This document shows, piece by piece, positions 8,071-26,229 of a DNA stretch of 64,000 nt. The stretch's first letter is position 1; each line of letters starts with the position of its first letter. A program made the position numbers and the translations under genes. The notes under the pieces are model-generated. The model was not told where the DNA came from, ran no database searches, and saw nothing but the letters and a program-made list of their open reading frames with translations. Origin of the DNA: Streptomyces cathayae (GTDB lineage: Bacteria; Actinomycetota; Actinomycetes; Streptomycetales; Streptomycetaceae); the NCBI RefSeq assembly GCF_029760955.1, contig NZ_CP121682.1, forward strand, positions 7,400,555 to 7,464,554, written 5' to 3'.

Positions 8071-8380
8071 CGGACGCCTCTGCTGCCCGGCTCGATCTCG
8101 TCGACGACCGACGGCGGCCCCCTCTCCACCGCCCTCCAGCAACAAGATCACGATCTACGGCTGGAGTATCAGGTGACAGCATCCCGAGCAGGTCCGAAGC
8201 CGGGCAGCAGTTGCAGCCGCTCCACGACGCGGCGCACCGGCTGGGCAAGCCGGTCGTTCTGGCGGCCGGGGCCTTTCTCGCGTACCTCAGGGGAAGCGTT
8301 CTGGAGGTCCCCCGCCGGGATTCTTCAGTCGCTGGCTTCGGGGCGCCCTGACCGTTTTTCTTGCCGCTTTCCTTGTTGCC
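8071..8380. other. Intergenic stretch without a convincing gene
   Basis: Several frames are open but none has protein-like composition. The last 60 bases in the frame of the next gene (WLRGALTVFLAAFLVAV) read as a hydrophobic helix with no start codon close upstream. The neighbouring gene may therefore begin further left, past an undetected frameshift. Confidence 0.4.
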
Positions 8381-8990: not shown

Positions 8991-9142
8991 CCGGTCGGTT
9001 CGTGAACAGAGGCCGGCCCGGCGGCTCGGGAGCATCTGTCCTGCGACAGCGAAGATTGATCGGCACGGAGCGCCGATGCCGCGGGGGGACCGTCGGCGAA
9101 CTCGGCAGCTGTCCGGGCCCGGCTCCGCATACGTTCAACCGC

Positions 9143-9868
9143 ATGGCTGACGACTGCTTCGCGCATCCACGACTCGCCGCGATCTACGATCCGCTCGACC
9201 CCGACCGCAGCGACCTCGACGCGTACCTGGAGATGGCGGAGGAGTTCGAGGCGCAACGAGTACTGGACATCGGCTGCGGCACAGGGGTGTTCGCACTTCT
9301 CCTGGCCGACCGCGGGATCGAGGTCGTCGGCGTGGATCCCGCCCGGGCGTCCCTCGACGTCGCCCGGGCCAAGCCGGGCAGTGAGCGTGTGCGCTGGATC
9401 TGCGGTGACGCGACAGACCTCCCACCGCTGCAGGTCGACCTCGCGACGATGACAGCGAACGTCGCCCAGGCCATCGCTGATCCGCCGGCATGGCACAAGA
9501 CGCTGGAGGGAGCCCGCGAAGCACTGCGGCCCGGCGGGCAGCTGGTCTTCGAGACGCGCGATCCGGCCAGACGCGCCTGAAAAGAGTGGACCCGCGAGAA
9601 CTCCTACCGTGTGACCGAGATCCCCGGTGTCGGCTCCGTCGAGAGCTGGGTTCGGCCGCTCGAGGCGAGCCGGCCTCTGGTGACGTTCCGCCGGACCGAC
9701 AGGTTCGCAGTGGACGGACAGGTGCTGACGTCGGATTCGACGCTGCGTTTCCGCGGGCGGGAGGAGGTCGGGCGGGATCTGGTCGCGCGTGGAGACGTGG
9801 TGGAGGAGGTTCGCGATGCGCCCGATCGCCCAGGAAGGGAGTTTGTCTTCCTGGCGCGACGTCCGTGA
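9143..9868 (+). pseudogene. Class I SAM-dependent methyltransferase with an apparent single-base deletion
   Basis: The N-terminal part from the ATG reads MADDCFAHPRLAAIYDPLD, then the SAM-binding motif I VLDIGCGTGVFALLLADRG, the acidic VVGVDPARAS, CGDATDLPP and LRPGGQLVFETRDPARRA. The frame then hits a TGA at 9578-9580. The next frame resumes precisely with KEWTRENSYRVTEIPGVG and runs to FVFLARRP at 9868. Adding one base to GCCTGAAAAG restores a full-length enzyme of about 240 residues. Substrate unknown; relatives are small-molecule methyltransferases. The shift is either a true lesion or a sequence error. Confidence 0.85.
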
Positions 9869-10006
9869 TCTCCGGTGCCCCACTCCACTCAACCTTCGGT
9901 GAGAAACCCCAGTGGCCACCGATCTTCGGCGGCCACGCTCGACCCTCGCTGCGCGAGGTCGGCCCAGGACACCGCTTGAAACGTCACGTCACCCGCCGAT
10001 CGCAGT

Positions 10007-10025
10007 CCGTACGCAGTTCGTACGG
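10007..10025. promoter_or_regulatory. Palindrome upstream of tap
   Basis: CCGTACG-CAGTT-CGTACGG is a perfect 7-bp inverted repeat 57 bases before the tap start. A second, looser pair (GTGAA at 10025-10029 with TTCAC about 10047) follows. It is a plausible operator for a helix-turn-helix protein, perhaps Tap itself. That role is inference. Confidence 0.45.
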
Positions 10026-10081
10026 TGAAAGTACGCGATCCTTACGGTTCACGGGGTAGGGTGCCGGTCAGGAGGTGTTCC

Positions 10082-12325
10082 ATGTCCGAGCTGTTCGACG
10101 CGGTCGACGCACTGGTCGCGTCCCGCTCTCCGCTGCCGCCGGCGAAGGAGCGCAAGCGACTGCGTACCGCGCACGGCCTGACACTGGACGAGGTGGCCGC
10201 CGCGCTGAAGGTGCGCCGTGCCACGGTGAGCGCCTGGGAGTCCGGCAAGACCGAGCCCCGCCCGCCGGAGCGTGAGGCGTACGCGCGGCTGCTCACGCAG
10301 CTCGCGGAGCTCTACCCCGCCCCGGTCGACACGGCCGCGCCCGTCCAAGACACTGCCGTGCCGGCCGCGTTCACCGCGACGCCCGCCCCGGCGGAATCGC
10401 AGACTCTGTCCACAGGCCCGGCATCCGACGCTGCGGACATGACCGCAACCGAGAACACCCAGACCAGCCCCGCCCTCGTCGCCGCTGCTCCGGCGGCCGC
10501 GCCGCGTCCGGCGCGCACCACCGGGCCGCCGTCGACGCCGTGCCGCCCGGGCACGCGGAAGACGGCCCCGGCCGGCACCCCGGCGGGCGGCGCCGACGCG
10601 CGCTTCGAGAACGGGCCGCTCGCGGTCGTCGACGTCGAGGACGGGCAGGTGCTGGCGTACTGCACCGGCGGCCTGGTCCTGAACGTGCCCGCCAGGTCCC
10701 TCCCGTCCCTGGTCGACTGGACGCTCACGGAGGCACGGCTCGGGCAGCCGAAGCTGTCCGGGCCGGGCAAGGACGCCGACCCACTGCTCGTGCTCACCGA
10801 GGCTGCCCTGGAGCGCTACGGCCTGCCGGCCGCCCTCACCGATGAGGAGCGGCTCGCCGGGCGGATCCCCGAGGGCCATAAGGTCATCAAGCAACTGGCC
10901 CGTGCCGACTGGAAGCTCACCAAGCGCGGGTTCGGGCCGTGGGCGCGGATCTACCGCCCCGCGCAGGGCTCGGAGCGGGCCTGCGTCCAGCTGTGCATCC
11001 CGTCCTGGCACGCGCTCGACACCCGCCACTGGGGCGGGGCCGGACAGCTGCCGCCGGCGGACCTCGCCCACGTGCTGGGCGTGTACGCGTCGCAGGTGAT
11101 GACGCCGCGCGGCTCCACCGCCGTCACCGGCCTGGAGCTGATGACCGCGCTGCACCCGCCGACCCGGGCCTCCGAGCCCGACGCCGACGGCAAGCGGCAC
11201 TCCGAGCACCACCCCAACAGCCTGGGCAAGGACCCGGTCGACCCGGCGCCGTGCGAGGCCCCGGACGGGCACCCGCTCCTGGCGGACCTGCCGCGCTTTC
11301 ACGTGCGCGGCCCGGCGGAGAAGCTCTTCGAGGAGGCCTACGACTGGGCACGCCCGATGACCGATGCCGAATGCCTGCGCCGCCACCTGGTCGGCATCGA
11401 CGTGAACATGGCCTTCGCCGCCGGCGCCAACGGCCTGAACGTCGGCCTCGGCGCGCCGACGCACGTCACCCACCCGGTGTTCGATCCGAAGCTGCCCGGC
11501 AGCTGGCTGGTGGACCTGTCCCACGTCGACCTGTCCCGCGTGAAGGTCGGCAAGGACACGTGGACGGAGCTGGACGCCGGCCTGCTGCCCAGCCCGTTCA
11601 CGCCCACGGGCGAGCGCCCCAAGGGCCCGGCCTGGTATGCGACACCCACCGTCGCCTACGCGGCGGAGCTGGGCTACGAGGTGCGCCCGATCGAGGCGTG
11701 GGTGCGGTACGAGAACGGCCGCTACCTGGACGGCTGGTACCAGCGGCTGCGCGACGCCTACCTGGCCACGATGGCCGACCTCGGCGTGCACGCGGACCTC
11801 TCCCCGGCCGACTTCCTGGCGGCCATGGACGGCCACAAGCAGCGCGACCCCCAGCTGGCGATCGTCGTCTCGGCGATCAAGGCCACGGTCAAGGGCGGCC
11901 TGGGCAAGCTCCGCGAGCGCCCGCGCGGCGAGGGCTGGCGGCCCGGCGAGCCGTGGCGCGCGCTGTCCCGCCCCACCTGGCGGCCGGACATCCGCGCGGC
12001 GGTCATCTCCCGCACCCGCATCAACCTGCACCGCAAGATCGTCAAGCACGCGGCGTTCACCGGCCACTACCCGGTCGCGATCCTGTCCGACTGCGTCGTC
12101 TACGCCACCGACGGCACCAGCCCGCTGGACTTCCTGCCCTACCGGGACGGCAAGCCGCTGCCCGGCGGCTTCAAGCTCGGCATCAACCCCGGCCTGGTCA
12201 AGCACGAGGGCACCCAGACCGTCCTGTGGGGCGAGGAGATCCGCGACCGGTTCGACGCGCCGGAGCTCAACCTCGCCCGCTACATCAAGGACGGCACCGT
12301 CACCGACGTCGACAACGGAGAGTAG
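10082..12325 (+). CDS. tap: Telomere-associated protein Tap
   Basis: The 747-residue protein starts at an ATG six bases after GGAGG. Residues 22-60 are an Xre-type helix-turn-helix (KRLRTAHGLTLDEVAAALKV, RRATVSAWESGKTEP), followed by a long Ala/Pro linker and a large conserved C-terminal region (from about residue 180) containing ALERYGLPAALTDEERLAGR and VVISRTRINLHRKIVKHA-like blocks. This is the layout of Streptomyces Tap. Family knowledge: Tap binds the 3' single-stranded overhang at the ends of linear replicons and recruits the terminal protein to patch telomeres. The gene is directly followed by tpg, 12 bases downstream. No frameshift is visible. Its presence says that this replicon, or a recent donor, is linear. 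Confidence 0.93.
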   Translation: MSELFDAVDALVASRSPLPPAKERKRLRTAHGLTLDEVAAALKVRRATVSAWESGKTEPRPPEREAYARLLTQLAELYPAPVDTAAPVQDTAVPAAFTATPAPAESQTLSTGPASDAADMTATENTQTSPALVAAAPAAAPRPARTTGPPSTPCRPGTRKTAPAGTPAGGADARFENGPLAVVDVEDGQVLAYCTGGLVLNVPARSLPSLVDWTLTEARLGQPKLSGPGKDADPLLVLTEAALERYGLPAALTDEERLAGRIPEGHKVIKQLARADWKLTKRGFGPWARIYRPAQGSERACVQLCIPSWHALDTRHWGGAGQLPPADLAHVLGVYASQVMTPRGSTAVTGLELMTALHPPTRASEPDADGKRHSEHHPNSLGKDPVDPAPCEAPDGHPLLADLPRFHVRGPAEKLFEEAYDWARPMTDAECLRRHLVGIDVNMAFAAGANGLNVGLGAPTHVTHPVFDPKLPGSWLVDLSHVDLSRVKVGKDTWTELDAGLLPSPFTPTGERPKGPAWYATPTVAYAAELGYEVRPIEAWVRYENGRYLDGWYQRLRDAYLATMADLGVHADLSPADFLAAMDGHKQRDPQLAIVVSAIKATVKGGLGKLRERPRGEGWRPGEPWRALSRPTWRPDIRAAVISRTRINLHRKIVKHAAFTGHYPVAILSDCVVYATDGTSPLDFLPYRDGKPLPGGFKLGINPGLVKHEGTQTVLWGEEIRDRFDAPELNLARYIKDGTVTDVDNGE

Positions 12326-12337
12326 GAGAGAGCGACG

Positions 12338-12895
12338 ATGAGCCTGTTCGGGGACGGCCTGGACGCCGCGGTGCACAAGGCGTTCACCCGCCCGGCTCCC
12401 AAGAGCGCGCCCGCGCAGATGCGCTACCTGGTCAAGCAGATGGGAGGCACCAAGCCGGTCGCCCAGATGCTGCGCATCTCCCAGCGCACCGTCGAGCGGT
12501 ACGTGAAGGACCAGATCAAAAAGCCCCGTCCGGAGCTCGCCGCGCGCCTGGAGCGCGAGGTGAAGAAGCGGTGGCAGCCGCAGATCCGGGCGAAGGCCCG
12601 GCAGAAGGCGGCGACCACCGGCGGCATCGTCATCGACACCCGCGCCCGCCTCGGCTACACCGCGCCGATCGGGTCGACGGACCAGGACCGCATCCGGCAC
12701 CTGACCATCGCCCTGCCCCCGCGCTACGCCGCCCGCCTCTTCGAGGCCCAGGAGGCCGGGGCCGGCGACGCCCGACTCCAGGAGATCGCCGCCGAAGCCC
12801 TCAAGGAGGTGTACTTCCAGGACGGCGGACGCCGCGCCGGAAGCCTGGAGGAGGTCCGCTTCACGGACATCGAGCACCTGGAGTTCGACCTGTAG
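12338..12895 (+). CDS. tpg: Telomere terminal protein Tpg
   Basis: 185 residues, exactly the usual length for Tpg (184-185). A helix-turn-helix-like stretch is at residues 38-61 (TKPVAQMLRISQRTVERYVK), then a basic region and GGIVIDTRARLGYTAPIGSTDQ. In Streptomyces Tpg the 5' end of the telomere is linked to a threonine, reported as Thr114 (recalled from the literature). In this protein residue 114 is the threonine of GST. The protein primes end-patching together with Tap, DNA polymerase and topoisomerase. It is translated from a GGAGAG site just after the tap stop. The gene appears intact. Confidence 0.95.
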   Translation: MSLFGDGLDAAVHKAFTRPAPKSAPAQMRYLVKQMGGTKPVAQMLRISQRTVERYVKDQIKKPRPELAARLEREVKKRWQPQIRAKARQKAATTGGIVIDTRARLGYTAPIGSTDQDRIRHLTIALPPRYAARLFEAQEAGAGDARLQEIAAEALKEVYFQDGGRRAGSLEEVRFTDIEHLEFDL

Positions 12896-13024
12896 CAACC
12901 GCGCCCCGAACCGTGCGTGAGCCCCGGGGCGACCGAGCACCCGGACGGATCCGAAGACGACGCAGACGACATGGTGTCGCGGCCCGAAAAACGGGTGACC
13001 GTGCCGGACGGCCGGCCGCGCGGC

Positions 13025-13960
13025 TGGGACCGCGCCCTGCCGGCCCGGTCCACCCTCGCCACCATCGACCAGGCCCTCACGGCCGCCCTCCCGGCCCGCT
13101 TCAGCATGCCGCGCCCTGCCGCCCGGTCCGGGCGGACCGTCATCGTGGACGAAATCCACGCCCTGACCCCCTGCACGCAGCAACCGCCGGGCCGCCCGCT
13201 GAACCGGCTGAGGGCTTTGGGCCGCCCCGTCGCCCTGCTGCCCCGTCGCCCTGCCCGCCCGTACCGGCAGCCAGACGGTGCGCCACCACCTCACCGGAGC
13301 CGGCCCCGCCCCCGGACCGTGCTCGCCGACCGCGCCCGGGCGCCCACCGACCCGGGCCGGCCGTTCGCCGCGGCCGCCGACGCCCCTCCTCACCCGGATC
13401 GATCCCCGGGCGGCCGGCGAGCACGCCCGGCGTTTTCGCCGCACCGCCGAGATCCCCCTGCACCCGGTGCGCCACGGGCGCGCACACCGGCCCCGACGGC
13501 GCGCCCGCCCGCGAGAGCCGGCTCGTACGCATCACCACCGAGATCGCGCCCGCCGTCGAGGGCGGCGGCTGTGCGCTGGTGGTGCGCGCGACCGCGCCCG
13601 GGCGCCCACCGACCCGGGCCGGCCGTTCGCCGCGGCCGCCGACGCCCCTCCTCACCCGGATCGATCCCCGGGCGGCCGGCGAGCACGCCCGGCGTTTTCG
13701 CCGCACCGCCGAGATCCCCCTGCACCCGGTGCGCCACGGGCGCGCACACCGGCCCCGACGGCGCGCCCGCCCGCGAGAGCCGGCTCGTACGCATCACCAC
13801 CGAGAGCGCGCCCGCCGTCGAGGGCGGCGGCTGTGCGCTGGTGGTGCGCGCGACCGTGGCCGACGACCGGCGCACCCGCCAGCACCTGAGGAAGGTGCCG
13901 GACCGGCCGGGCGGAGCGGACGGCCGGCCGGTGCTGCACGCCCGCCCGGTCCCTGGCGTG
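13025..13960 (+). pseudogene. Remnant of a type I CRISPR cas3 helicase gene
   Basis: The frame from about 13034 reads LPARSTLATIDQALTAALPA, then RSGRTVIVDEIHALTPCTQQ and LNRLRALGRPVALL. This is the Cas3 helicase segment with the DExH box (DEIH) and the strand just before motif III. After a region containing two copies of a 262-bp repeat, Cas3-like sequence resumes: RITTESAPAVEGGGCALVVRATVADDRR, then GGADGRPVLHARPVP, resembling the domain-2 segment with LVIVNTV and LLHARF. The nuclease domain, motif I and the C terminus are absent and frames change inside the repeat. No other cas gene or CRISPR array is in the window. It is a relic next to tap-tpg. Confidence 0.65.
13327..13856 (+). repeat. 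262-bp tandem direct repeat (two full copies)
   Basis: Copy 1 spans 13327-13588 and copy 2 spans 13589-13850, with six bases of a third. The copies differ by one base that I can see (GAGATC versus GAGAGC). Because 262 is not a multiple of three, the duplication shifts reading frame, which helped kill the cas3 gene it lies in. The near-identity says the duplication is recent. Confidence 0.9.
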
Positions 13961-14235
13961 CGGCCCTCACCCCTCAGAGCCGCGGTTGCCTCAAGCGCAC
14001 CGGCGAACGTCCCGACCGGCGCTGTCACGTAATGGGGTGCGGGGGTCTTTGCCGGCGTGCCGGGGTGTGGCGGGGGCCGGTTTCCGGGCCGGTTCCCAGA
14101 CCTTGGCGGATCACGTGCCGCGGCCGGCGCGGAACGGCCACTGACCGCGCTGCGCGCAGTGCGTGCAACCGGCAGAAACCGGCGCAGAATGGGAATGTGG
14201 TCTTCCGTGGCGGCCGGGCAATCCCTCGGCGGGGG

Positions 14236-14841
14236 GTGGACCGTACATATGAGTGTGCCGAGTTTCCGGTTCCCGTCGGCCGTCTTTCGGACGAGGCTCT
14301 GCTGTCCGGGCTGGCCACCGGTGATCCGGAACTCGCGGTCACCTTCGTACGGAGGTTTCAGCGCGCGGTCTTCGGTGTCGCCGTCGCCGTCACCAAAGAT
14401 CGGCAGCTTGCCGAGGACATCGCCCAGCAGACGTTCGAGCGGGCGTGGCGTCATGCGCAGATCTACGACTCGCGCCGCGGGTCGGTGACGACCTGGCTGA
14501 CGACCATCGCGCACAATCTCGCCGTCGACGCCGTGCGTGCGCGGCGGACGGAGCCGGTGGCACCCGAGGACCTCGACACGCTCCTCGACGCCGTGACCGA
14601 GACTCCCGAGCAGTGGGCCCTGGCCGACGAGGCCTCGTCCCAGCTGCGGGCCGCCGTGGCGCGGCTGCCCCGGGAACAGGGTCGTGCCCTGGTGATGGCG
14701 GGCATCTACGGAATGACGGCCCAGCAGATCGCCGACTGGGAGAAGATCCCGCTGGGCACCGCCAAGACGCGGATCAGGACGGCGATGGGAAAGCTGCGGA
14801 CCACACTCGCCTCTCCGGATCGAGGGGACCATGGCCAGTGA
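14236..14841 (+). CDS. ECF RNA polymerase sigma factor
   Basis: About 201 residues from a GTG start (VDRTYECAEF); the start is uncertain because no strong ribosome site precedes it. Region 2 is VTFVRRFQRAVFGVAVAVTKDRQLAEDIAQQTFERAW with the -10 recognition helix TTWLTTIAHNLAVDAVR. Region 4 is LPREQGRALVMAGIYGMTAQQIADWEKIPLGTAKTRIRTAMGKLR. No extra domains. The stop overlaps the next gene by 11 bases, and that gene encodes its likely anti-sigma factor. The set of promoters it reads is unknown; ECF factors often recognise a site upstream of their own gene. Confidence 0.9.
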   Translation: MDRTYECAEFPVPVGRLSDEALLSGLATGDPELAVTFVRRFQRAVFGVAVAVTKDRQLAEDIAQQTFERAWRHAQIYDSRRGSVTTWLTTIAHNLAVDAVRARRTEPVAPEDLDTLLDAVTETPEQWALADEASSQLRAAVARLPREQGRALVMAGIYGMTAQQIADWEKIPLGTAKTRIRTAMGKLRTTLASPDRGDHGQ

Positions 14842-15604
14842 CGTGACCTGCGAGAAGCTGCGGGAGGTCGGCGCCGAGCTGGCACTGGGCGTGCTGCCCG
14901 GCCGTGAGCGGGCGGTGGCGGTCGCACATCTGGACCGGTGCGCGGCGTGTCGGGAGTGCATCGAGCACATGACCCTGGTGGGCGACGGACTGATCGGGCT
15001 GGTGCCGGGCAGCGAGCCGCCGCTCGGGTTCGAGACCCGGGTGGTGCGCAGACTGCCCCAGGACGCGACGGCGCACGAGGGGGGACCCCGCCCGCGGGCG
15101 CCCGGCCTCACGCACGGGACGGTCCGCAGCCGCGCACGCCGCATCCGGCTGCGGGCCGCCTCCGCCGTGGCCGCGTTCGCCTTCGCGTTCGGGTTCACCG
15201 GCTGGGCGGCCGGCACCGCCATCGAGAGTCTCACGGCCCCGAGCCCCCCTGCCGTAAAGGTCCAGACGCCTTTGAGGGAGGGAGAGCTGACCTCGGCCTC
15301 GGGCCCCGGGCCGTCGGCCGGAGACGTCTACGCTCACCCCGCAGACCCGGGGAAACCCGGTTGGATCTACATGAGCGTCGACCTCGCCGCCGCCGGCACT
15401 CCGTACAGCGGCAAGGTCGTCTGCCTCCTGGAGCGCACGGACGGCACCACGATCCGCGTGGGCACCTTCACCCTGAGCAACGGACGGGGTGACTGGGGCG
15501 CGGCGGCCCCGGTCGACCCCGCGGCACTCGCCGGCGCCCGCCTGACCGCCTTTGACGGCACCGTCCTGGCCACCGGCCGCTTCGAGACCGGCCAAAGCGC
15601 GTGA
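14831..15604 (+). CDS. Membrane anti-sigma factor (zf-HC2 / RskA-like)
   Basis: 257 residues. The N-terminal zinc-finger domain holds HLDRCAACREC (H-x3-C-x2-C) and would clamp the ECF sigma factor in the cytoplasm. One membrane helix follows at about residues 111-130 (AASAVAAFAFAFGFTGWAAG). The extracytoplasmic part, GKPGWIYMSVDLAAAGTPYSG to TAFDGTVLATGRF, matches the RskA-type C-terminal domain. Its start lies inside the sigma gene, so expression is coupled. Release of the sigma factor in this family is by regulated proteolysis or by a redox change in the finger. Confidence 0.9.
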   Translation: MASDVTCEKLREVGAELALGVLPGRERAVAVAHLDRCAACRECIEHMTLVGDGLIGLVPGSEPPLGFETRVVRRLPQDATAHEGGPRPRAPGLTHGTVRSRARRIRLRAASAVAAFAFAFGFTGWAAGTAIESLTAPSPPAVKVQTPLREGELTSASGPGPSAGDVYAHPADPGKPGWIYMSVDLAAAGTPYSGKVVCLLERTDGTTIRVGTFTLSNGRGDWGAAAPVDPAALAGARLTAFDGTVLATGRFETGQSA

Positions 15605-15625
15605 GACCGGCGCCCCGCCCCGTCC

Positions 15626-16543
15626 TCAGGGGCGGGCGGCGCGGCGCCCCGGGCCGGGCAGCGTCGCGTCGAGTGCGGCGGCCAGTTCGGCGACCGAGGG
15701 CCGGGACGACGGATCGGTCCGAAGGCAGCCGTCGATGGCCGCCGCGAGCCCCCCGGGCAGCCGCCGCCGCGAGCCGACCGGCGGGGCGGCCTCCTCCAGC
15801 TGCGGATACCAGCGGTCCTGGCCGCCCGTGACGCTGCCGTCGCAGGGCTCGTCCCCTTCCTCCCCACGGGGAGAAACCCCGCGGCGATCCCCGCGGCCGA
15901 ACGGCACGTCGCCGGCGGCGACCTCGTACAACGTGATGCCGACGCCCCACACGTCCGCGGCTGCCGACAGCGGCCCGCCGCGGGCCTGCTCGGGAGCGAG
16001 GTAGCAGAACGTGCCCGCCCCCGCGGGCGCGGGCCCGGGCGGCCGCGCGGTACTCAGGTCCAGCACCTTGGCGTGACCGCGGTCCACCACCACGTTCGAC
16101 GGCTTGAGGTCCAGGTGCAGCAGACCCTGACCGTGGAGGTAGTGGATCGCGGAACACAGCTGCACCCCGAGCAGCGCCACGTCGGCGGCGGACGGCCGGC
16201 GCCGCAACCGGTGGATGAGGTGGGACAGCGTCTCGCCGGTCAGCGTCTCCAGCACGACGAGCGGCACCGGCGACTCGAACGTCTCGTACGCGCGGACCAG
16301 GTGCGGGTGGGTGAAGGCCCCCAGCCACCGCCCCTCACGCAGCAGCCGCTCGCCCAGCTGCTCCTGCTCCCGGCGGTCGGGGCGCACGGCCTTGACCACA
16401 CAGCGGCAGTCCCGCTCCTGGCTCCAGACGTCGTAGACGTCGAGCCAGCCGGTGCGCGCCAGATGCGCCAGCACCTCGTAGCCCGGGACCGGTCTCGTGC
16501 CGGGCGCCAGAACCGGGGCGGCCCGCACCGCCGGGACACTCAC
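15626..16543 (-). CDS. Serine/threonine protein kinase coupled to the ABC exporter
   Basis: 305 residues. The GTG start overlaps the exporter stop (GTGA), so the two are translated together. Kinase fold: VAIK-like lysine K51 in CVVKAVRPD, an αC glutamate region (RLLREGRWL), catalytic loop HLDLKPSN with D145, a DLS in place of DFG (D162) and APEQ with DVWGVGITLYEV. It lacks the extracytoplasmic PASTA or other sensor domain and any membrane helix, so it is cytoplasmic and compact. The HRD arginine is Leu and the DFG phenylalanine is Leu, both tolerated in actinobacterial kinases. Context: third gene of a cassette with an ABC exporter and a His-rich peptide. The kinase could modify the peptide (Ser/Thr at positions 5, 6, 19, 20, 26) or control export. 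Confidence 0.88.
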   Translation of the reverse strand: MSVPAVRAAPVLAPGTRPVPGYEVLAHLARTGWLDVYDVWSQERDCRCVVKAVRPDRREQEQLGERLLREGRWLGAFTHPHLVRAYETFESPVPLVVLETLTGETLSHLIHRLRRRPSAADVALLGVQLCSAIHYLHGQGLLHLDLKPSNVVVDRGHAKVLDLSTARPPGPAPAGAGTFCYLAPEQARGGPLSAAADVWGVGITLYEVAAGDVPFGRGDRRGVSPRGEEGDEPCDGSVTGGQDRWYPQLEEAAPPVGSRRRLPGGLAAAIDGCLRTDPSSRPSVAELAAALDATLPGPGRRAARP

Positions 16544-18384
16544 GGCAGCACCGTCCCCAGGGCCGGGGACCCGGCCGGGGACCCGGCCGGGGCGTTCAGC
16601 CAGTGCAGCCGGGCGTACGTCCCGCCGCGCTCGAGCAGGTCGTCGTGGGCGCCGCACTCGACGATCCTGCCCCGGTCGAGAACCACGATGCGCGTGGCGT
16701 CCTGGACGGTCAGCAGGTTGTGGGAGATGACGACGGTCGTCCGCCCGGCCATGAGCCGGCGCAGCGGGTCCATGATCCGCCGGCCGGACCGCACATCGAG
16801 GCCGGTGGTCGGTTCGTCCAGGAGGAGCACGGGCGCGTCCCTGATCATCGCGCGGGCGATCGCCAGGCGCTGGCGCTGCCCGCCGGAGAGCGTCCGGCCG
16901 CGCTGGCCGACCATCGTGTCGTAGCCCATGGGCAGCAGCTCGATGAACTCGTGCGCGTCCGCGGCGCGCGCCGCCGCGACGATGTCCGCCTCCGTCGCCT
17001 CCGGCCGGCCGTAGGCGATGTTGTCCCGCACGGTGCCGTGGAAGACGAGCGTCTCCTGCAGGACCACCGCGACGCTCTCCCGCAGGTCGGACAGGCGCAG
17101 GTCCCGCAGGTTTGTCCCGTCCAGGCGGACCGCGCCCCGGTCGGGATCGTAGAAGCGCAGCTGCAGCTTCGCGACCGTCGACTTGCCGGCCCCGCTGGCC
17201 CCGACCAGCGCCAGCGTCTCCCCGGCCGCCACGTGGAACGACACGTCCGACAGCGCCCAGGACGGCGTGCCGGGATAGCGGAAGAAGACGCCGTCGAACT
17301 CCACCTCCCCTCGCGCACGGCCGGTCCGGCGGGCACCGGCGGCCTCGGCGACCTGCGGCCGCTGGTCCAGCAGCTCGATGATCCGTTCGGCCGAGGCGGA
17401 CGCCGCGTAGAAGGTGGTGCCCAGGTGGGACAGACCGCGGACCGGACTGTAGAGGTTGCCGATCAGCGCCAGGAAGACCAGCAGTCCGCCCAGCGTGAGC
17501 TGCCCCTGGGCCAGCTTCCAGGTGCCCAGGCTCATGACCGCCAGGACGCCGGACACCTCGATGACCTCGACGACGGATCCGTAGACGGCGCGGATCCGCG
17601 TCGAGGCCATCGTGGCCCGGAACCTGCCGACGTTCTCACGCTCGAACCGGCGCTCCTCCCACCTCTGCCGGTTGTACGCCTGCACCAGGGCGACGTTGCC
17701 CAGCGACTCCTCGGCGATCGCGCTGATCGAACCGCTGCGGCGCCTGCGCTCCCGGGACGCCTCCTTGATCAGCCGCGCGAAGTGCCGGGCGGCGCGCCAG
17801 AACAGCGGCACGATGACGAGGGCGAGGAGGGTCAGATCCCACTGCAGATAGAACAGCAGACCGAGGAAGACACCCAGGCGGATCACGTAGTAGAGGGCGT
17901 CCGCCACTCCCGAGAGCAGGAACGTCTCGACCGTGTCGACATCGCCCGTCACCCGCGACAGCACGTCCCCGAGCCGCCGGCGTTCGAAGAACCCGAGCGA
18001 CAGGCCCTGGACGTGCCGGAACACATCGGAGCGCAGCGTCAGCAGGAAGCGTTCGCTGACCCACGTGGACGTCACGTCGTCGGCGAACCCCAGAATGCCG
18101 GAGCCGATGACGAGCCCCAGATAGGTCGGTGCGATCCACAGGAGCGGTCCGATGTCGCGGGGAACGAGCACACCGTCCACCACGGTCTTGAAGAGCCAGA
18201 TCTCCGTGGCGTCGAGGGCGGGGCCGATCAGGCTGAACAGGACGACGGGAACGAACCAGCGCCGGCCGCCGCGGGTATAGGGCCAGAACCGCCGGAACAC
18301 CTCGCGCAAAGACACCGGGGGCGCGGCCGCCACCACATCGGAAGCCTCACCCACCGACAGCAGACGCCGCAGGACATGCACCAT
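16540..18384 (-). CDS. ABC exporter, fused membrane and ATPase domains
   Basis: 614 residues. Residues about 40-330 form a six-helix exporter membrane domain with a typical NVALVQAYNRQ coupling segment. The ATPase part has Walker A GASGAGKST (395-403), LSGGQ signature (499-503), Walker B LLLDEP with E524 and H-loop H555, so it should hydrolyse ATP as a homodimer. There is no N-terminal C39 peptidase. The ATG is preceded by GAGGA. It lies 83 bases downstream of the His-rich peptide gene and overlaps the kinase gene. Half-transporters of this kind export peptides, lipids or drugs; the obvious local cargo is the small peptide, by inference. Confidence 0.93.
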   Translation of the reverse strand: MVHVLRRLLSVGEASDVVAAAPPVSLREVFRRFWPYTRGGRRWFVPVVLFSLIGPALDATEIWLFKTVVDGVLVPRDIGPLLWIAPTYLGLVIGSGILGFADDVTSTWVSERFLLTLRSDVFRHVQGLSLGFFERRRLGDVLSRVTGDVDTVETFLLSGVADALYYVIRLGVFLGLLFYLQWDLTLLALVIVPLFWRAARHFARLIKEASRERRRRSGSISAIAEESLGNVALVQAYNRQRWEERRFERENVGRFRATMASTRIRAVYGSVVEVIEVSGVLAVMSLGTWKLAQGQLTLGGLLVFLALIGNLYSPVRGLSHLGTTFYAASASAERIIELLDQRPQVAEAAGARRTGRARGEVEFDGVFFRYPGTPSWALSDVSFHVAAGETLALVGASGAGKSTVAKLQLRFYDPDRGAVRLDGTNLRDLRLSDLRESVAVVLQETLVFHGTVRDNIAYGRPEATEADIVAAARAADAHEFIELLPMGYDTMVGQRGRTLSGGQRQRLAIARAMIRDAPVLLLDEPTTGLDVRSGRRIMDPLRRLMAGRTTVVISHNLLTVQDATRIVVLDRGRIVECGAHDDLLERGGTYARLHWLNAPAGSPAGSPALGTVLP

Positions 18385-18467
18385 GGCATGCGTTCCTCGT
18401 GGAGGGACGGACGGAGCGGACCAGGGCCTTTCAATCTACGGTCCGCTCAGCCTCCGTAGCGTGGTCA

Positions 18468-18644
18468 CTAGTGGCCGTAGCCGTAGCCGTGCCCGCGACG
18501 GTCGCCGTGGTCGTGCCCGTGGCGGTCGCCGTGGTCGTGCCCGTGGTCGTGCCCGTGACCGTGCCCCGAGAAGTCGTCGCGGCGCGACGTGTCGTTGTTG
18601 CGGTCCCGGCGATGGGCAGGCATCAGACTGCTGAAGATAGCCAT
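18468..18644 (-). CDS. 58-residue His/Gly/Asp-rich peptide, candidate exported or modified peptide
   Basis: A clear AGGAGG site lies six bases before the ATG. The peptide has a short leader-like N terminus (MAIFSSLMPAHRRDRNND), a hinge TSRRDDFSG, and a C-terminal core of alternating His and Gly/Asp (from GHGHGHDHGHDH to GHGYGYGH). Twelve of 58 residues are His, eleven of them in the last 31, and no Cys is present. Such a core should bind Ni, Zn or Cu. It is the first gene of a run with an ABC exporter and a kinase on the same strand. Possible roles: a ribosomal peptide (RiPP) precursor, a secreted metal-binding peptide, or a metallochaperone. I do not recognise the family. Size and clean start argue it is real; the opposite strand shows only a repetitive Val/Pro shadow. 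Confidence 0.7.
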   Translation of the reverse strand: MAIFSSLMPAHRRDRNNDTSRRDDFSGHGHGHDHGHDHGDRHGHDHGDRRGHGYGYGH

Positions 18645-19098
18645 TGCGTTCCTCCTGAAAATTACTCCACACGGGATACGTCTCAGGACGGGACTTGGAT
18701 GGCGTTCCGGGGCAATAAGTCGAAAATGCTGGAGGATCGGCCAAAGCCTCGGCACCGCTCGGCCCCGCCGCGCCGCGAGCCCCGCGGCGCACCGCACCCG
18801 GCGGACTTGGGACCCGCAAGGTGGGCAGAGCCCGATGACCGGGCGCACGCCCGAGGCGGTGCCGATCGGTGCCACGGCTCAGCATGGGTGCTGGTCAGCG
18901 GGCCGGGCGGCGACGAATGACTCCGGCGCAGGCGGCGAGTCCGGCGCTGTTCTGGGGCGTGAGAAGGGGAAAGAGGACGGCGGCGCTGCCCGGCCCCCCG
19001 CACGCCGATCAGCCTCCAGAGCCCTTTTGCCGATCGGCGGCGCCCGGAGCGCCCACCGAGGCGTCTGCGCCCCCTGGGGTGGGGTGGTGTCGTGCCGG
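18645..19098. other. Leader of the peptide cassette and gene-free stretch
   Basis: The bases just upstream of the peptide gene (about 18657-18700) are relatively AT-rich (TAATTTT-type on the minus strand) and are the likely promoter of the peptide-exporter-kinase run; I cannot assign exact boxes. From 18700 to the IS end at 19099 no reading frame looks coding. Confidence 0.4.
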
Positions 19099-20409
19099 TG
19101 AACCGCCCCGGCTCGCCATAAGGATCGAGTCATGGCACGACCTTCCCGTCACCCCCTTGAACTCCGCCGGCATGCGGTGCGCATGGTCGCCGAGGCGCGC
19201 GACGACCACGCGCACGAGACGGCCGCCTTGCAGGCGGTCACGGACAAGCTCGGCACCGGCTCCCGCGAGACGCTGCGGAACCGGGTGAAGCAGCACGAGA
19301 TCGACGCAGGACCGCGTCCGGGGACGACGACGGAGGAGTCCGCCCGCTCAAGGCGTTGAAGAAGGAGAACGCCGAACTGAAGCGGGCCAACGAGATCCTC
19401 AAGGCCGCGGCGAGTTCCTTCGCGGCCGAGCCCGACCGGCCCCCACACGCCCGCAGCGTTCCTCGAGGAGCACCGGGACCGCTTCGGCGGCATCGAGCCG
19501 ATCTGCAGGACACTCACCGAACACGACTGCACGATCGCCCCGTCCGCCTCCCGCGCCCACAAGAAACGCCCGGCCGCCCCGCCCGCCCGTTCTGTGCGGG
19601 ACACGGAGCTCAAGAAGCTGATCCGCCAGGTCCACACCGACAACCACCGTGTCCACGGCGCCCGGAAGATCTGGCGGGAGCCGACCCGCCGGGGTCATCA
19701 GGCGGCCCGGCGCACCGCCGAGCGGCTGCTGCGCGAGCCGGGCAGCGCCGGCGCCGTCCGCGGCAAGAGGGTGCTCACCACGATGCCGGACCAGCAGGCC
19801 GAGCGGGCACCGGGCCGGGTGGACCGCGACTTCGCCGCCGGCGCTCCGAATCGCTGCCGGGCCGGGGATCTCACGCACGCGGCCACCTGGCCCGCAGTGG
19901 TCCACCTCGCCTTTGCCCTCGACACCTTCTCCCGCCGGATCGCCGGCCGGCTCGCCGCGACGCCGAAGGAGCCCCGGCTCGTCCTGGACACTCTGAAGAC
20001 CGCGCTGTGGCAGCGCGACCGCGATGAATATCCATATGTGCGCGGCGAGTTGACACACCACAGCGATGCGGACAGCCAATACACCGGTGTCCGGCCGGCC
20101 GGACACCCGGATGCGGCCGGCATCGCGGCCCCGACCGGATCTGCCGGCGACGCGTACGACAACGCCCCGAGGAAGAGCACGATCGGCCCGTGCAAAACCG
20201 AACGGCTCAAGCCGCAGCGGCCCTGGAAGACCCTCTCCCCATCGAGCCGGCCACCGCCGGTGTGGACCGACTGGCACAACCACCGCGGGCTCCACGGGGA
20301 GACAGCCCCCGTCCCACCCGTCGAGGACGAGGCCGATCACTCCAGGGAATCCAAGAAACCCCAGGTCACAACCACAATGTGAGATCTCTGCCGAACCCGG
20401 GGCGGTTCA
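19099..20409 (+). mobile_element. Decayed IS3-family insertion sequence (about 1.31 kb)
   Basis: The ends are inverted repeats: TGAACCGCCCCGGCTCG at the left and, on the other strand, TGAACCGCCCCGGGTTCG at the right. They frame an orfA/orfB transposase pair. No target duplication is seen (CGG at the left, GTG at the right). Confidence 0.85.
19132..20382 (+). pseudogene. IS3-family transposase OrfA/OrfB, frameshifted and catalytically damaged
   Basis: OrfA starts MARPSRHPLELRRHAVRMVA and continues across a frame change into LKKENAELKRANEILKAAAS. OrfB then needs another frame change: RAHKKRPAAPPARSVRDTEL, IRQVHTDNHRVHGARKIW. The catalytic core is eroded: RCRAGDLTHAATW keeps the first Asp, ELTHHSDADSQYTGVR keeps the second, but the block normally reading DNALAESTIG is DNAPRKSTIG, so the catalytic Glu is Lys. 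At least two frameshifts plus this change make it dead. Confidence 0.85.
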
Positions 20410-20879
20410 GTGTGCTACGAGAACCTCACCGACCTGATGCAGACCACGGATCCCGACGAGCCGAGCCGCCGTATCGAGCAGATCCGTGACCACCAACGGC
20501 AGCGGACCGCCCACCACCCCGCCCTCGACCCCGGCCGCACGGCCCCTCCCACAACCACAGCCAGGAGCAGGCCACCGCACACCAGCAGCACCGCCCCCAG
20601 AACCCCGGCCCCACACAGAAACCCCACAAGCCTCCCACCGCGGCACCCGGCCCGCGGAACGGGCGCCCGCCACCCGCACGGCACAAGGTGCAGCCCAGAC
20701 ACGGCGCACGGCGAACAGAGGAACCGGAAGGATGCGGCCCGGTGGATGTCCCGGCGCCACCGGCGGCGGCCCCTCCCCGGGCGTCATCGGCCCTGCCACT
20801 GCCTTCCGCCCCACTTCCTGAACAGTGCTGCCTGCCCGCGAGGACCTGCTCACTCACAGACCACCGGTAGGCTGCAGCG
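20410..20879. other. Proline-rich, low-complexity stretch; gene uncertain
   Basis: A frame from GTG 20486 to 20821 would give a 111-residue Pro/Thr/Arg-rich protein starting MTTNGSGPPTTPPSTPAARP. An overlapping frame from 20410 begins CYENLTDLMQTTDPDEPSRR, which looks more protein-like for its first 25 residues. These may be the N-terminal scrap of a larger gene cut by the IS3 element. No motif supports a function. Confidence 0.3.
20868..20873 (+). promoter_or_regulatory. Putative -10 box of a leaderless transcript
   Basis: TAGGCT ends seven bases before the GTG start of the 2H phosphoesterase, and no ribosome site is present between. This spacing is typical of leaderless mRNAs in Streptomyces. 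No clear -35 box is assigned. Confidence 0.4.
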
Positions 20880-21413
20880 GTGCGCACGGTCGAGCTTCTG
20901 CTGGACGAGGCGGCAGAACTAGCGGTTCGAAAGGCCTGGCGGCGGCTCGCGGACGCGGGGCTGCCCAGTCAGGCGCGCCACCGCTCACCGACCAACAGCC
21001 CGCACCTCACCCTGGCCGCCTGCCCGGAGCTGACCGCCCCGATCCGCTGGGAGCTCGCCGAGGTGGCCGCCGCCCTGCCGCTGCCGGTGCGGTTCACCGG
21101 CGTGGTCCGCTTCGAGAGGCCCACCTCGGTGCTGGCCTGGTCGCTGGATCCCGACTCCGCGCTGGCCGGCGTGCACCGCCGGGTATGGGAGGCGGTGGCC
21201 TCGGACAGCCCGCCCGAGACCCTCAGCCCATTCCACGAACCCGGGCGCTGGAGCCCGCACATCACCCTCGGCCGTACCCGGCGGGCAGGTGCCTTCGCCG
21301 GCCGGCGCATCCCCGAACTGCTGCCGGCGCCGCCGCTGTCGGCCCGGCTCATCACCCTGCGCAGCTATGACACCCACACCGGCGCCCTGGAGGTGATCGA
21401 GCCCCGCCCCTGA
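20880..21413 (+). CDS. 2H phosphoesterase / 2'-5' RNA ligase-like protein
   Basis: 177 residues from GTG. Two H-x-T-φ motifs define the fold: PHLTLA (about residue 40) and PHITLG (about residue 122), spaced as in the LigT/2H superfamily. MRTVELLLDEAAELAVRKAW and GVHRRVWEAVASDSPPETL are typical surroundings. Members hydrolyse or ligate 2',5'- or cyclic phosphates of RNA or nucleotides. The cellular substrate in actinobacteria is not established. The gene stands alone between two insertion sequences and seems intact. The following 21414-21667 holds no gene. Confidence 0.88.
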   Translation: MRTVELLLDEAAELAVRKAWRRLADAGLPSQARHRSPTNSPHLTLAACPELTAPIRWELAEVAAALPLPVRFTGVVRFERPTSVLAWSLDPDSALAGVHRRVWEAVASDSPPETLSPFHEPGRWSPHITLGRTRRAGAFAGRRIPELLPAPPLSARLITLRSYDTHTGALEVIEPRP

Positions 21414-21667
21414 GACGCCCCGACACCAACCGGCCAGCGCCCCCGCCGAAGGGGCAGCCCAGCGGCCGGCGGCACCGTCCGCAACGCCCCTGCAGCCACA
21501 GCGCTCCCTGATCCGGTCGTCCTGCCTCCGCCCCCTGGAGGGCGCGTCCGCCCAGCCGCTGACCCAGCGCAGCCCACCACCGGAGGCAAGAAAGATGCAC
21601 CCGCCTCCCGCAAGCACGGCGTTGATGCTCCTGTTGATCGTCGAGCTTGCCGACGAGATGAGCACCC

Positions 21668-22596
21668 TATGGTGACCGGGTGCGGTACTTGACGGAGTCG
21701 TTCATCCTCGGGGCCCTGCGGCGGGAGCGTTCGGTCGAGCAGTTCCTTGGGCCGTGCGGCCCGACGGAACGCCCGGTGTCGGCGAAGCAGACGTCCAGGC
21801 CGGTAGCCAGGGCCAGCGCGGCATGCCGTCCCATCCCGGTTCCCTGGTCAGCGACTTGCGCACCAACTCCGGCATACCGTCGATCTGGTGGGTGAGCACG
21901 GTCGACAGGCCGTCGGCGTTCTCGCCCTTCGGCAGGGCGAGGATCATCAGGAAGCGGGTGGCGCGGCCGGCCGGGGTCGCGGCCGCGGTAGCGCCGTTCC
22001 TGCCCACGACGAGGTCGCCTTCCCAGCGGCCGGGGACCCGGCGGACGAGAGCTTCGGCGGGACGGTCGTGGATCGAGCGCAGGCCGGCGATCCGGCTCCT
22101 TGGGACGCATCGGGCCTGCGGCGGGGGCCGCGGGCAGTGCGGCGGCTGGGCAGCATCACGCCCAGCCGGGCGAGCTCGCCCTTGGGCGGTGCGTAGATCC
22201 ACGTGCAGACGGCCTCGTGGGAGATCGTTTCCCCGCCGGCCGGGAGCGAGCCTTCCATGACTGCCACACTCGTGTCCTGGGCCTCGAGTTTCAAACGGCC
22301 CGCGATCTGGTTCGGCGTGCGCCCGTACCGCAGGTCGGCCAGGACCCGCTGCCGCAGCAGCACGTTGTCGTCCAGCAGGCGTTGCTGAGGCCGCCGACGC
22401 CGCGTCGCCGCCCGCTTGTCGGCCGTCGATGCCCGGTAGCCGCGCGTCGAGGAGTTGCGTGCGGCTCCCGGCTGACCACCGACGAGCATCGGCCGACCCG
22501 CCGGGCGATCTCCCGCACCCCCTCACCTTGGGCGCGTCCGACCGCGATCTCCTCACGCTCCTCACGCGTCAACGGTCTCCGCACGGCCACGGGCAA
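21668..22596 (-). pseudogene. IS30-family transposase, multiply frameshifted
   Basis: Reading across three frames on the minus strand gives the family landmarks: RRPLTREEREEIAVGRAQGE with the helix-turn-helix VREIARRVGR, then LLRQRVLADLRYGRTPNQIAGRL, ISHEAVCTWIYAPPKGELARLG, then VPGRWEGDLVVGRNG (first Asp) and RFLMILALPKGENADGLSTVL. The last catalytic region is scrambled. At least three shifts are needed, so it is dead. 22597-22859 shows no gene. Confidence 0.8.
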
Positions 22597-22859
22597 CCCT
22601 TCTCACCCGCACTGTCGCTTCGAGGCGATGACACCGCCCGCCCTTGACCGGCCAGCACGGCCCGCACACTCCACGAGCGGGCGGCCCCGGTCGGCAACGC
22701 TCTCTGAAACTCCCCACTCCGTTGGACTCCGGACCGAGTGGGGCGACGAGTATCCCTGGCCGTTTTCAAAGATCCTCATCAACCCGCCCTCACCCCCGCG
22801 GCGAATCGCGCAGCAGAGTCCGGTCGGACCTCAAAGCGCCGAAGTCGGTAAACGCCAAG

Positions 22860-23046
22860 CTAAATACAGGTAGCTTTTACGCCCGCCTTTGCCGTAAGTA
22901 TGCCAATGTCGCGATTGGTGCCGCATGCGAGGATCCCGGCGGGCGTTATGGCCAGAGCGCCCGCCATTGCGGGCAGGAGCAAGCGCGAGGAGACCCGCTT
23001 GTTGAGGTCCCGGATGCGGACCGTGCCGTCTAGTCCGCCAGTGACG
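22860..23046 (-). pseudogene. C-terminal fragment of a WD40-repeat protein
   Basis: On the minus strand the last 60 codons before a TAG read TGGLDGTVRIRDLNKRVSSR, then LLLPAMAGALAITPAGILAC and GTNRDIGILTAKAG. GLDGTVRIRDL is the classic end of a WD40 blade. Codon third positions are less GC-rich than in neighbours, so it came from elsewhere. It is cut at its 5' side by the truncated Lrp gene, which begins at the same point on the opposite strand. Confidence 0.5.
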
Positions 23047-23441
23047 GCGGCAGGCCGGCCGTCCAGCTCGCGAAGCGGGTCGGCCTGACGCCGCCGTCGT
23101 GCCTGCGGCGGGTCAAGCGGCTGGAGGAGGCCGGCGTCATCGCCGGCTACCGGGCCGTCATCGACCCCGAGGCCATGGGCCGCGGCATGGAAGTCCTCGT
23201 CGACGTCGAGATCCATGCCCAGGACCGCACGACGATCGAGGAGTTCGAGGCCGCCGTCGCCGCGTACGACGAAGTCGTCGAGTTGCGCCGTATGTACGGC
23301 AGCCCGCATCACTTCGTCCGCGTCGCCGTCGCCGACGACGCCGCCTACGAGGCCTTCGTCATGGACAAGCTCACCGGCCACCCCGCCGTCCTCCGCCTCG
23401 AGTCCCACCTCACCATGAAAACGATCAAGGCCGAGGGCTGA
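23038..23441 (+). pseudogene. Lrp/AsnC-family regulator lacking its N terminus
   Basis: The frame reads RPAVQLAKRVGLTPPSCLRRVKRLEEAGVIAGYRAVID, then the ligand-binding RAM domain MEVLVDVEIHAQDRTTIEEF to LESHLTMKTIKAEG. The first helix of the DNA-binding domain and any normal start are missing, because the sequence is joined at about 23040 to a WD40 fragment on the other strand. If an internal ATG (23175) were used the product would be a RAM domain only. It faces the dgdA-like gene tail to tail and resembles the intact regulator at 24976, so it may be an old paralogue. Confidence 0.75.
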
Positions 23442-23520
23442 CTCTCAGACCCCGGCCGCTCGGTGCAGTTCGGTGCGGGACCGGCCCGGCAGCCGGACGG
23501 CTGCCGGGATGCGAATGTGG

Positions 23521-24969
<1,449 letters not shown>

Positions 24970-24975
24970 TCACGC

Positions 24976-25431
24976 GTGGACCGCACCGACCGCGCAATAA
25001 TCGAGCAACTGCGCCGCGACTGCCGCCTGACCAACACCGAACTCGCCGACCGGATCGGCCTGACGCCCTCACCCTGCCTGCGCCGCGTCAGACGCCTGGA
25101 AGAGCAGGGAGTGATCCTCGGCTACCACGCCCGCATCGCCCCCAAGGCCCTCAACCGCGGCTTCGAGGTCCAGGTCGACCTCGAACTCACCGACCAGGCC
25201 CGCACCACGGTCGAGCGCTTCGAAGCCGAACTGGTGGCCCTCCCCGAAATCGTCGAGGCACGCCGCATGTTCGGCGCTTCCGACTACCACGCGCTGATCT
25301 CGGTCGCCGACCTGGAAACCTACGAGCAGTTCATGACCCAACGGCTGCTCGCCCTGCCGGGCCTGGCCAAGCTCCAGTCCCGCTTTGCGATGAAAACCCT
25401 CAAAGCCGACGTGCCCCCGCCCGGAAGGTGA
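24976..25431 (+). CDS. Lrp/AsnC-family transcriptional regulator
   Basis: 151 residues from GTG. The N-terminal helix-turn-helix is VDRTDRAIIEQLRRDCRLTN to TPSPCLRRVRRLEEQGVI. The RAM effector-binding domain runs from YHARIAPKALNRGFEVQVDL to LQSRFAMKTLKADVP. Divergent arrangement with the dialkylglycine-decarboxylase-like gene and a shared 108-bp gap suggest that it controls that gene and itself in response to an amino acid. Intact, unlike its relative at 23038. Confidence 0.9.
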   Translation: MDRTDRAIIEQLRRDCRLTNTELADRIGLTPSPCLRRVRRLEEQGVILGYHARIAPKALNRGFEVQVDLELTDQARTTVERFEAELVALPEIVEARRMFGASDYHALISVADLETYEQFMTQRLLALPGLAKLQSRFAMKTLKADVPPPGR

Positions 25432-25545
25432 CGACAGCACCGCACCCCCGTCACTTCGCCTATCTCGTCCCCGAGCCAGGCGACACTCTCGCCCGAAGCT
25501 TCTCGCATCAGACGCAGGTCTCAGTGTCCGATCCGGGCCTCTCGT

Positions 25546-26153: not shown

Positions 26154-26229
26154 ACCGCATAGGTTCGCCGGGTCGGTGGTCCGGGCGGTTGGATGTGCAG
26201 TGACGTCCGATCCGACCGCTGGGGGTGTG

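Follow-up and report, generated by a model that had tools for sequence, protein, structure and literature searches.

What is made by a gene cassette in which a short histidine-rich peptide, an ABC exporter and a protein kinase follow one another on a single strand? The question is raised by a 64 000-nucleotide stretch of the Streptomyces cathayae genome (contig NZ_CP121682.1, positions 7,400,555–7,464,554; hereafter the window). An original prediction, made from the letters of the window alone, had described a 58-residue peptide with 12 His and no Cys, a strong ribosome site, an exporter and a kinase on one strand with a GTGA overlap between the last two genes, and all of these features were confirmed. 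Our comparison of related loci makes it likely that the product is an exported low-complexity peptide which is phosphorylated by its partner kinase. The elements of the cassette that bear on this reading are as follows.

15626–16543, minus strand: Hanks-type Ser/Thr kinase, 305 residues (Pfam Pkinase).
16540–18384, minus strand: ABC exporter, 614 residues, a half-transporter of the MsbA/ABCB type (Pfam/NCBIfam domains and nearest structures).
18468–18644, minus strand: low-complexity peptide gene, 58 residues with 12 His and no Cys (frame translation and homologues).
18651–18656, minus strand: Shine–Dalgarno sequence AGGAGG, 6 nucleotides 5' of the ATG (identified by eye).

All three genes lie on the minus strand, with the GTG start of the kinase gene and the TGA stop of the exporter gene sharing GTGA. 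Relatives were collected from two overlapping samples of 392 genus genomes and 394 family genomes. An orthologous exporter, defined by at least 65% identity and well separated from a second group of roughly 45–53%, was found in 43 of the 392 (counted from the match list) and 45 of the 394. The locus set also took in one 55% match from outside the family and named loci, and 21 distant loci (L079–L099) were left out of it; the 95 loci read were reduced to 86 (85 from Streptomycetaceae and one from outside) by removing L144, which has no exporter, and eight duplicates. Peptides were called by pattern, and for 15 entries, of which one is a duplicate, the start was chosen by eye. In 83 of the 86 non-duplicate orthologous loci, a peptide gene whose product begins in a similar way lies directly 5' of the exporter gene. 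The three without an assigned peptide are S. brasiliensis L070 (duplicate L106), in which the peptide start and frame are broken, L206, whose contig starts at the exporter so that no peptide is assignable, and L208, where the exporter is 55% identical and no peptide frame was recognized upstream. L070 was scored for the kinase and not for the peptide, and the contig of L129 ends before the place of the kinase. The original prediction named, as a finding that would speak against it, the absence of peptide homologues beside homologous exporter–kinase pairs; such homologues are present, and the conserved peptide–exporter–kinase unit with a fixed leader and a variable tail that it anticipated is seen across the orthologous loci.

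The window peptide consists of the leader MAIFSSLMPA, T19-S20 and S26, followed by a His/Gly/Asp tail. Over 82 aligned peptides the leader of about ten residues has the consensus MAIFSxLxPA (M1 in 82, F or L at position 4 in 80, L7 in 72, P9 in 71 and A10 in 64, with I, V, L, F or M at position 3), and the tail is hypervariable and of low complexity, with His/Gly/Asp repeats, poly-Arg, Gly/Tyr or Arg/Asp among relatives; this combination of a conserved N-terminal leader with a variable core is that of precursors of ribosomally synthesized and post-translationally modified peptides (RiPPs). The first 12 codons show a ratio of nonsynonymous to synonymous change (pN/pS) of 0.46, measured over 21 selected pairs of relatives in which one locus appears twice. 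A permissive Shine–Dalgarno-like word (any of eight) precedes 82 of 82 peptides, as a raw count without a chance baseline. The C-terminal residue is Tyr or Trp in 43 of 82 peptides (33 Y and 10 W) and is perhaps a second recognition feature. The family is barely reachable by database search, yet it sits beside readily found exporters: the window peptide as a query returned nine other proteins at E ≤ 0.01 (54–70 residues, the six with a named source being Streptomyces hypothetical proteins), a profile search from the peptide alignment matched three proteins and a plasmid search with the peptide gave zero matches. The window peptide matches no Pfam or NCBIfam family above cut-off, and eight varied peptides matched no model of either database at E ≤ 0.1.

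Of the 82 scorable loci, 24 lack the kinase gene or keep only a remnant of it, and the composition of the peptide differs with the state of the kinase. At least two Ser/Thr past residue 10 are present in 58 of 58 kinase-positive peptides (range 2–14) versus five of 24 kinase-negative ones, 15 of which have none. Adjacent [ST][ST] residues occur in 54 of 58 kinase-positive versus three of 24 kinase-negative peptides, and the first such pair begins at residues 18–21 in 43 of the 54. Within the first ten residues Ser/Thr content does not differ (1.05 in kinase-positive versus 1.38 in kinase-negative peptides, p = 0.12). The exporter tree contains 14 changes of kinase state (83 scored rows); among 11 independent pairs on supported branches (82 rows), 6–7 agree with the association and none opposes it (p = 0.016–0.031), with the same result for the [ST][ST] trait. 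A scan of every usable count threshold for eight residue classes gave the strongest pairing for two or more Ser/Thr (6.5 to 0); the runner-up, 12 or more Asp/Glu, runs in the opposite sense (0 to 5) and falls below the six pairs needed for significance, and the remaining classes are weaker. A four-state likelihood model of correlated evolution gave a likelihood ratio of 45.3 (four degrees of freedom, p = 3 × 10^-9) for two or more Ser/Thr and 39.3 for [ST][ST]. This covariation under phylogenetic control supports the proposal that the kinase is the likely modifier of the Ser/Thr-bearing N-terminal half. Peptides without a kinase have mostly lost their phosphorylatable residues, which points to a family of exported peptides, some of them phosphorylated, that has drawn little notice.

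The kinase-less state was checked in several ways. In six kinase-less loci the exporter stop lies at most 34 bases from the end of the anti-sigma gene that flanks the cassette, overlapping it in one. Kinase remnants could be matched in L068, L128 and L172, as well as in L106, which was not scored; in L180 the match is weak (20 residues). Whole-genome searches of 22 kinase-negative genomes, covering 23 of the 24 loci, found no such kinase at E ≤ 1e-45 in 20; of the remaining two, G557 has a kinase in a separate kinase-positive cassette and G380 has one with an in-frame stop. Three of three kinase-positive controls were matched. The gene order of six kinase-less Kitasatospora-like loci, judged without a domain scan, shows no common partner enzyme. 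The excluded locus L144 (G326:C1:7783000-7798000) is a decayed cassette from which the exporter has been deleted, so that the peptide gene reads on in the wrong frame into that of the kinase; the aspartate of its kinase HxD motif is changed to glutamate.

The kinase protein consists of a Pkinase domain alone, and its nearest solved structures are those of PknB (88 bits). The window protein retains Lys51, Glu70, His143, Asp145, Lys147, Asn150 and Asp162, and the catalytic Lys and Glu, the HxDxKxxN motif and the metal-binding Asp that mark an active Hanks kinase are invariant in 56 aligned rows, which were picked by a motif itself requiring His, Lys, Pro and Asn and count the window copy twice. 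These residues are also invariant in 47 kinase sequences picked without the motif, and three loci that the motif missed still have H, D, K and N. PknB-type Hanks kinases are alike in closest structure and catalytic residues; the window protein differs from them in being a kinase domain only, in having a near-invariant RTGWLDxYD in place of the Gly-rich loop and in belonging to a dedicated operon. A Cys-Arg-Cys sequence at residues 46–48, just before the catalytic Lys, is invariant in 56 of the 56 rows.

The exporter has ABC_membrane and ABC_tran domains in an MsbA-like layout, with ABCB/MsbA exporters as the nearest solved structures and no peptidase domain in its Pfam list. Its pairing with the peptide persists without the kinase in the 24 kinase-negative orthologous loci and in 49 of 51 loci of the second, paralogous exporter group, and for this reason the suggestion of the original prediction that the kinase gates export is disfavoured. 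The paralogous exporters (45–51% identity) were examined in 51 loci fetched from about 102 listed matches, with 4–8 kb taken per locus, within which no kinase was found in any of the 51. Peptide frames are present in 49 (three picked by eye for low complexity); their starts are mostly related (MSFHKIAPVKK, MSFKKLAPLPPKPK, MSFRKVFPRRRR and others) and their tails are Pro/Lys- or Arg-rich. With a single peptide counted for each locus, no more than one Ser/Thr follows residue 10 in 44 of 49, and adjacent [ST][ST] occurs in none of 57 paralogous peptides. Eight paralogous loci carry tandem double peptide frames; in L241, L242, L243, L251, L252, L253 and L257 a tandem pair of unlike low-complexity peptides is encoded upstream of one paralogous exporter.

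Beyond these groups, four more distant exporters of the window genome have no such peptide frame. A class-wide sample of 394 genomes returned seven loci outside the family; in six of these the exporter is preceded by a candidate frame of low complexity (Pro/Lys, Arg/Trp/Cys, His/Arg and others). In L267 and L268, from another actinobacterial family, Arg/Trp/Cys-rich short frames precede relatives of the exporter. Another of the six, L272, also encodes a kinase with 47% identity to one of the family, and its peptide is made up of Arg/Gly and Ser/Thr repeats; it is suggestive only, as it is a single locus with a peptide picked by low complexity. We read these loci as pointing to an unrecognized superfamily of exporter-coupled low-complexity peptides in which phosphorylation would be the add-on of one branch.

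The charge of the peptides bears on a different explanation, in which a cationic Arg-, His-, Pro- or Gly-rich peptide is a toxin or antimicrobial that the kinase detoxifies by neutralizing its charge in the cytoplasm before export. Kinase-positive peptides are on average more cationic than kinase-negative orthologues (+0.116 versus -0.042 per residue), Asp/Glu leans upwards where the kinase is missing (a fraction of 0.211 versus 0.137), and a dedicated exporter, tandem peptide duplications and hypervariable tails would suit such a system. Against it, the kinase-less paralogous peptides are the most cationic of all (+0.29 per residue), so that cationic charge needs no kinase, the tails contain few aliphatic residues and only the sigma pair described below is otherwise conserved beside the cassette; we regard a toxin as unlikely. 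Charge neutralization as the general reason for the kinase is disfavoured on the same comparison with the paralogous peptides. Whether Asp/Glu takes the place of phosphorylation sites was also considered: a median split in independent pairs shows nothing, and the best threshold (the five pairs to none noted above) gives too few pairs for significance and was picked post hoc.

The His content of the window peptide had led the original prediction to a metal-binding His/Gly core, and a His-rich exported metal chaperone or metallophore would account for the 12 His in the window and for the 36 of 82 orthologous peptides with at least ten. The count per peptide ranges from 0 to 20, however, with at most five His in 20 of 82 and 0–1 in eight of 82, so that no metal-binding residues are conserved family-wide and a metal role for the whole family is unsupported. 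His is swapped for Gly/Tyr or Arg in relatives with an orthologous exporter, tails of paralogous peptides can be rich in Pro/Lys, and no metal importer or receptor was recognized by eye among the conserved gene clusters of 51 loci. A metallophore is therefore highly improbable as an account of the family, and metal binding by His, ruled out as a family trait by these counts, may be a local variant.

The phosphorylated-peptide reading is extended by the DNA around the cassette, on parts of which (a sigma/anti-sigma pair and a promoter motif) the original prediction was silent. The additional features are as follows.

14197–14841, plus strand: extracytoplasmic-function (ECF) sigma factor, start codon uncertain (SigK is the second-best NCBIfam match).
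14831–15604, plus strand: anti-sigma factor with a zf-HC2-like N-terminus below cut-off (domain match), converging on the kinase gene.
18407–18457, minus strand: stem-loop between the peptide stop and the exporter start, with arms GAGCGGACC / GGTCCGCTC (folding).
18676–18703, minus strand: promoter-like motif GCCATCC-N16-CGTAT 5' of the peptide gene, which the neighbouring ECF sigma factor is proposed to recognize.

The sigma/anti-sigma pair (14197–15604) is convergent with the peptide–exporter–kinase operon, as it mostly is in relatives, with the same direction as the operon in L137, L139 and L140; the window sigma frame reads through the whole of 14197–14841. Clustering of gene content in 51 loci recovered the exporter in 51, the anti-sigma factor in 43 and the sigma factor in 39, followed by the kinase in 19 (an undercount by the frame picker) and peptide frames in 18. 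The sigma pair is the only conserved neighbour of the cassette in these loci; several clusters of 16–18 loci come from one fixed chromosomal place, with neighbours that we take to be argR and argD.

The motif GCCATCC-N16-CGTAT was found by aligning the sequence 5' of the peptide gene and is common to the peptide and sigma genes. Its core, ATCC-N16-CGTA, has 113 matches in 83 loci (2.25 million bases, both strands counted), of which 58 lie 50–95 nucleotides 5' of the peptide gene, 42 lie close to the start of the sigma gene (no more than 220 nucleotides away, or up to 560 nucleotides downstream for sigma genes pointing with the operon) and 13 lie elsewhere. A match is present near the sigma start in 42 of the 55 loci having the sigma gene, and at the peptide in 51 of those 55 versus seven of the 28 loci without it. 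Genome-wide, the form GCMATCC of the motif occurs at three copies of the cassette and at one other place. A GGAAC-type ECF promoter was sought in 12 loci and none was found near the peptide. The SigK–RskA system is the nearest likeness of the pair, SigK being the second-best match of the window sigma factor (106.0 bits), and the CCATCC element resembles what we take to be the SigK consensus. The difference is that this score, like those of two relatives (103.9 and 108.6 bits, best or second-best matches), lies below the SigK cut-off of 226, and that the target here is a peptide-export operon.

The stem-loop region folds more stably than shuffled sequences (mean z = -2.45, with 49 of 83 loci below -2) in comparison with a control stretch inside the exporter gene (mean z = -0.39, seven of 83 below -2). 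A hairpin directly after the stop of a frame with runs of His, Arg, Pro or Gly, followed by an ABC exporter gene, is what would be expected if the small frame were a ribosome-mediated attenuator, in which same-residue runs stall the ribosome and the hairpin controls read-through. The available part of PMC4191407 describes such an arrangement, a small leader frame and hairpin before an ABC exporter gene, for bmrCD of Bacillus subtilis. A hairpin between the small frame and the regulated gene is found over the 83 loci, although not significantly in the window copy alone. An attenuator gives no reason for Ser/Thr content to track the kinase; moreover, the N-terminus is conserved as protein, two peptide frames stand in tandem at eight paralogous loci and the promoter–sigma link provides an alternative control. 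The cassette differs from bmrCD in that its peptide is conserved at the protein level and co-evolves with the kinase, and we consider attenuation very unlikely.

Several observations weigh against phosphorylation of an exported peptide. Five kinase-negative peptides have at least two Ser/Thr; L068, L172 and L180 lie beside a kinase remnant and look like recent losses, and L140 and L202 have no remnant to account for theirs. L128 keeps a remnant, and its peptide has none of these Ser/Thr. The cut-off of two Ser/Thr and the boundary at residue 10 were picked after the data had been seen. A median split of the Ser/Thr fraction gave on average 5.2 agreeing versus 1.0 opposing pairs and is not significant, so that the signal is one of Ser/Thr presence versus near-absence and not of amount; one rate of the likelihood model lies at its upper bound, and single rates are therefore not to be read. 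The predicted structure of the kinase has low confidence (predicted local distance difference test score 49.5) and is too poor for use. No protease was found among the conserved clusters of the 51 loci, and neither a peptidase domain in the exporter nor a leader peptidase. The window sigma start has no exact copy of the motif, and the window hairpin alone is not significant (z = -1.05). Finally, without phylogenetic control kinase-negative peptides are also longer, with Asp/Glu, Gly and aromatics up and Lys/Arg and Met down.

This last drift would also arise if the kinase acted on the exporter or the sigma/anti-sigma pair and the Ser/Thr changes of the peptide were incidental shifts in composition. 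Regulators of this kind are kinase substrates in other bacterial systems, and here the kinase gene shares bases with the exporter gene and lies directly next to the anti-sigma gene. The exporter nevertheless persists without the kinase, as does the sigma pair in most such genus loci, and under phylogenetic pairing Ser/Thr presence is the strongest of the eight residue classes, which makes another substrate distinctly unlikely. Phosphorylation of the peptide by its partner kinase remains the reading that we favour.

Among known systems, the ram operon is a class III/IV lanthipeptide example with a precursor and an ABC exporter. The cassette shares the combination of kinase, precursor and exporter with class III/IV synthetases (LanKC and LanL), and the window kinase scores 85.9 bits against the LanL model, for which the cut-off is 650. 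In these enzymes, according to the available part of PMC10604976, a kinase domain phosphorylates Ser/Thr of a short precursor. Unlike them, the window kinase protein has no lyase or cyclase domain, and none was seen among the conserved neighbours in 51 loci. The core Cys of class III/IV lanthipeptides is absent from the window peptide and from 74 of 82 peptides, in which thioether rings are therefore not possible, and any Cys is present in only eight. In its workings the cassette resembles a pared-down class III/IV lanthipeptide system, but these features set it outside that family. Separate kinase-like modifiers of ribosomal peptides are described for lasso-peptide kinases and class V lanthipeptide systems in the available parts of PMC9266682, PMC10368454 and PMC9486802; compared by description, the cassette differs in having no conserved cyclase or protease in 51 loci and a PknB-like kinase. 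No description in the open-access PubMed Central literature was recognized as a peptide–exporter–kinase system, which is not proof of absence, and the newness of the system rests on that literature and on the NCBIfam/Pfam negatives.

What is established is the gene itself, how it is conserved, which genes accompany it, the promoter motif and the co-evolution; from these we infer translation, phosphorylation, export and an extracellular function. An envelope signal would free the ECF sigma factor from its anti-sigma partner, and motif conservation suggests that GCCATCC-N16-CGTAT promoters then direct its transcription of the peptide operon and, in most relatives, of the sigma/anti-sigma genes themselves. 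The stem-loop after the peptide gene probably allows an excess of peptide over exporter. The short, intrinsically disordered peptide would be phosphorylated before export by the small cytosolic kinase at the Thr/Ser cluster around residues 18–21 and at other Ser/Thr of the tail, a step backed by the co-evolution. The dedicated exporter would recognize the conserved N-terminus and move the peptide out, as suggested by the near-universal pairing of the two genes. Function would reside in the general character of the tail and not in its exact sequence, as a low-complexity polyelectrolyte at or outside the cell surface; given how tolerant tail composition is, such a role is a better fit than metal binding or the action of a specific toxin.

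More tentatively, and by analogy, the cassette could be one branch of an actinobacterial superfamily that combines a short export tag, a freely evolving disordered tail and its own MsbA-like exporter. The branch with a kinase, phosphorylated before export, might then be a counterpart of secreted phosphoproteins, its phospho-polyelectrolytes building a surface matrix, a condensate or a cation-binding coat; we hold this wider picture to be possible, though the odds are against it. Caseins, statherin and adhesive-cement proteins are secreted phosphoproteins that offer a comparison. Kinase-less lineages may supply negative charge by Asp/Glu instead. If correct, the phosphorylated-peptide reading would mean that a ribosomal peptide bound for export has a phosphorylating enzyme of its own, apparently with no dehydration or cyclization step, and that a modular export tag accepts almost any low-complexity cargo, with relevance to natural-product discovery, surface biology and peptide secretion. 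The co-evolution predicts both the residues and the enzyme, and kinase-less relatives are available as natural controls.

The assembly comprises a 7.46-Mb contig (C1), with the window at its right end, and a 150-kb contig (C2). The genome encodes the identical peptide three times: besides the window copy there is one close to the left end of C1 and one on C2, a repetition that the original prediction had not mentioned. At least 19 kb around the cassette (window 8152–27150) is repeated in inverted orientation near the left end of C1 with 99.9% identity, and 17 kb of the surroundings is also present on C2 with 99.8% identity; these are probably terminal inverted repeats common to the chromosome and a linear plasmid. 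Over a 4.9-kb stretch the three cassette copies differ solely by indels of 1–2 bases at short GC-rich runs, three in L100 and ten in L101 relative to the window copy, which break frames in those copies. The indel places on the window are 14663, 18265 and 18321, with counterparts in L100 and L101, and the differences look like residual sequencing error and not biology.

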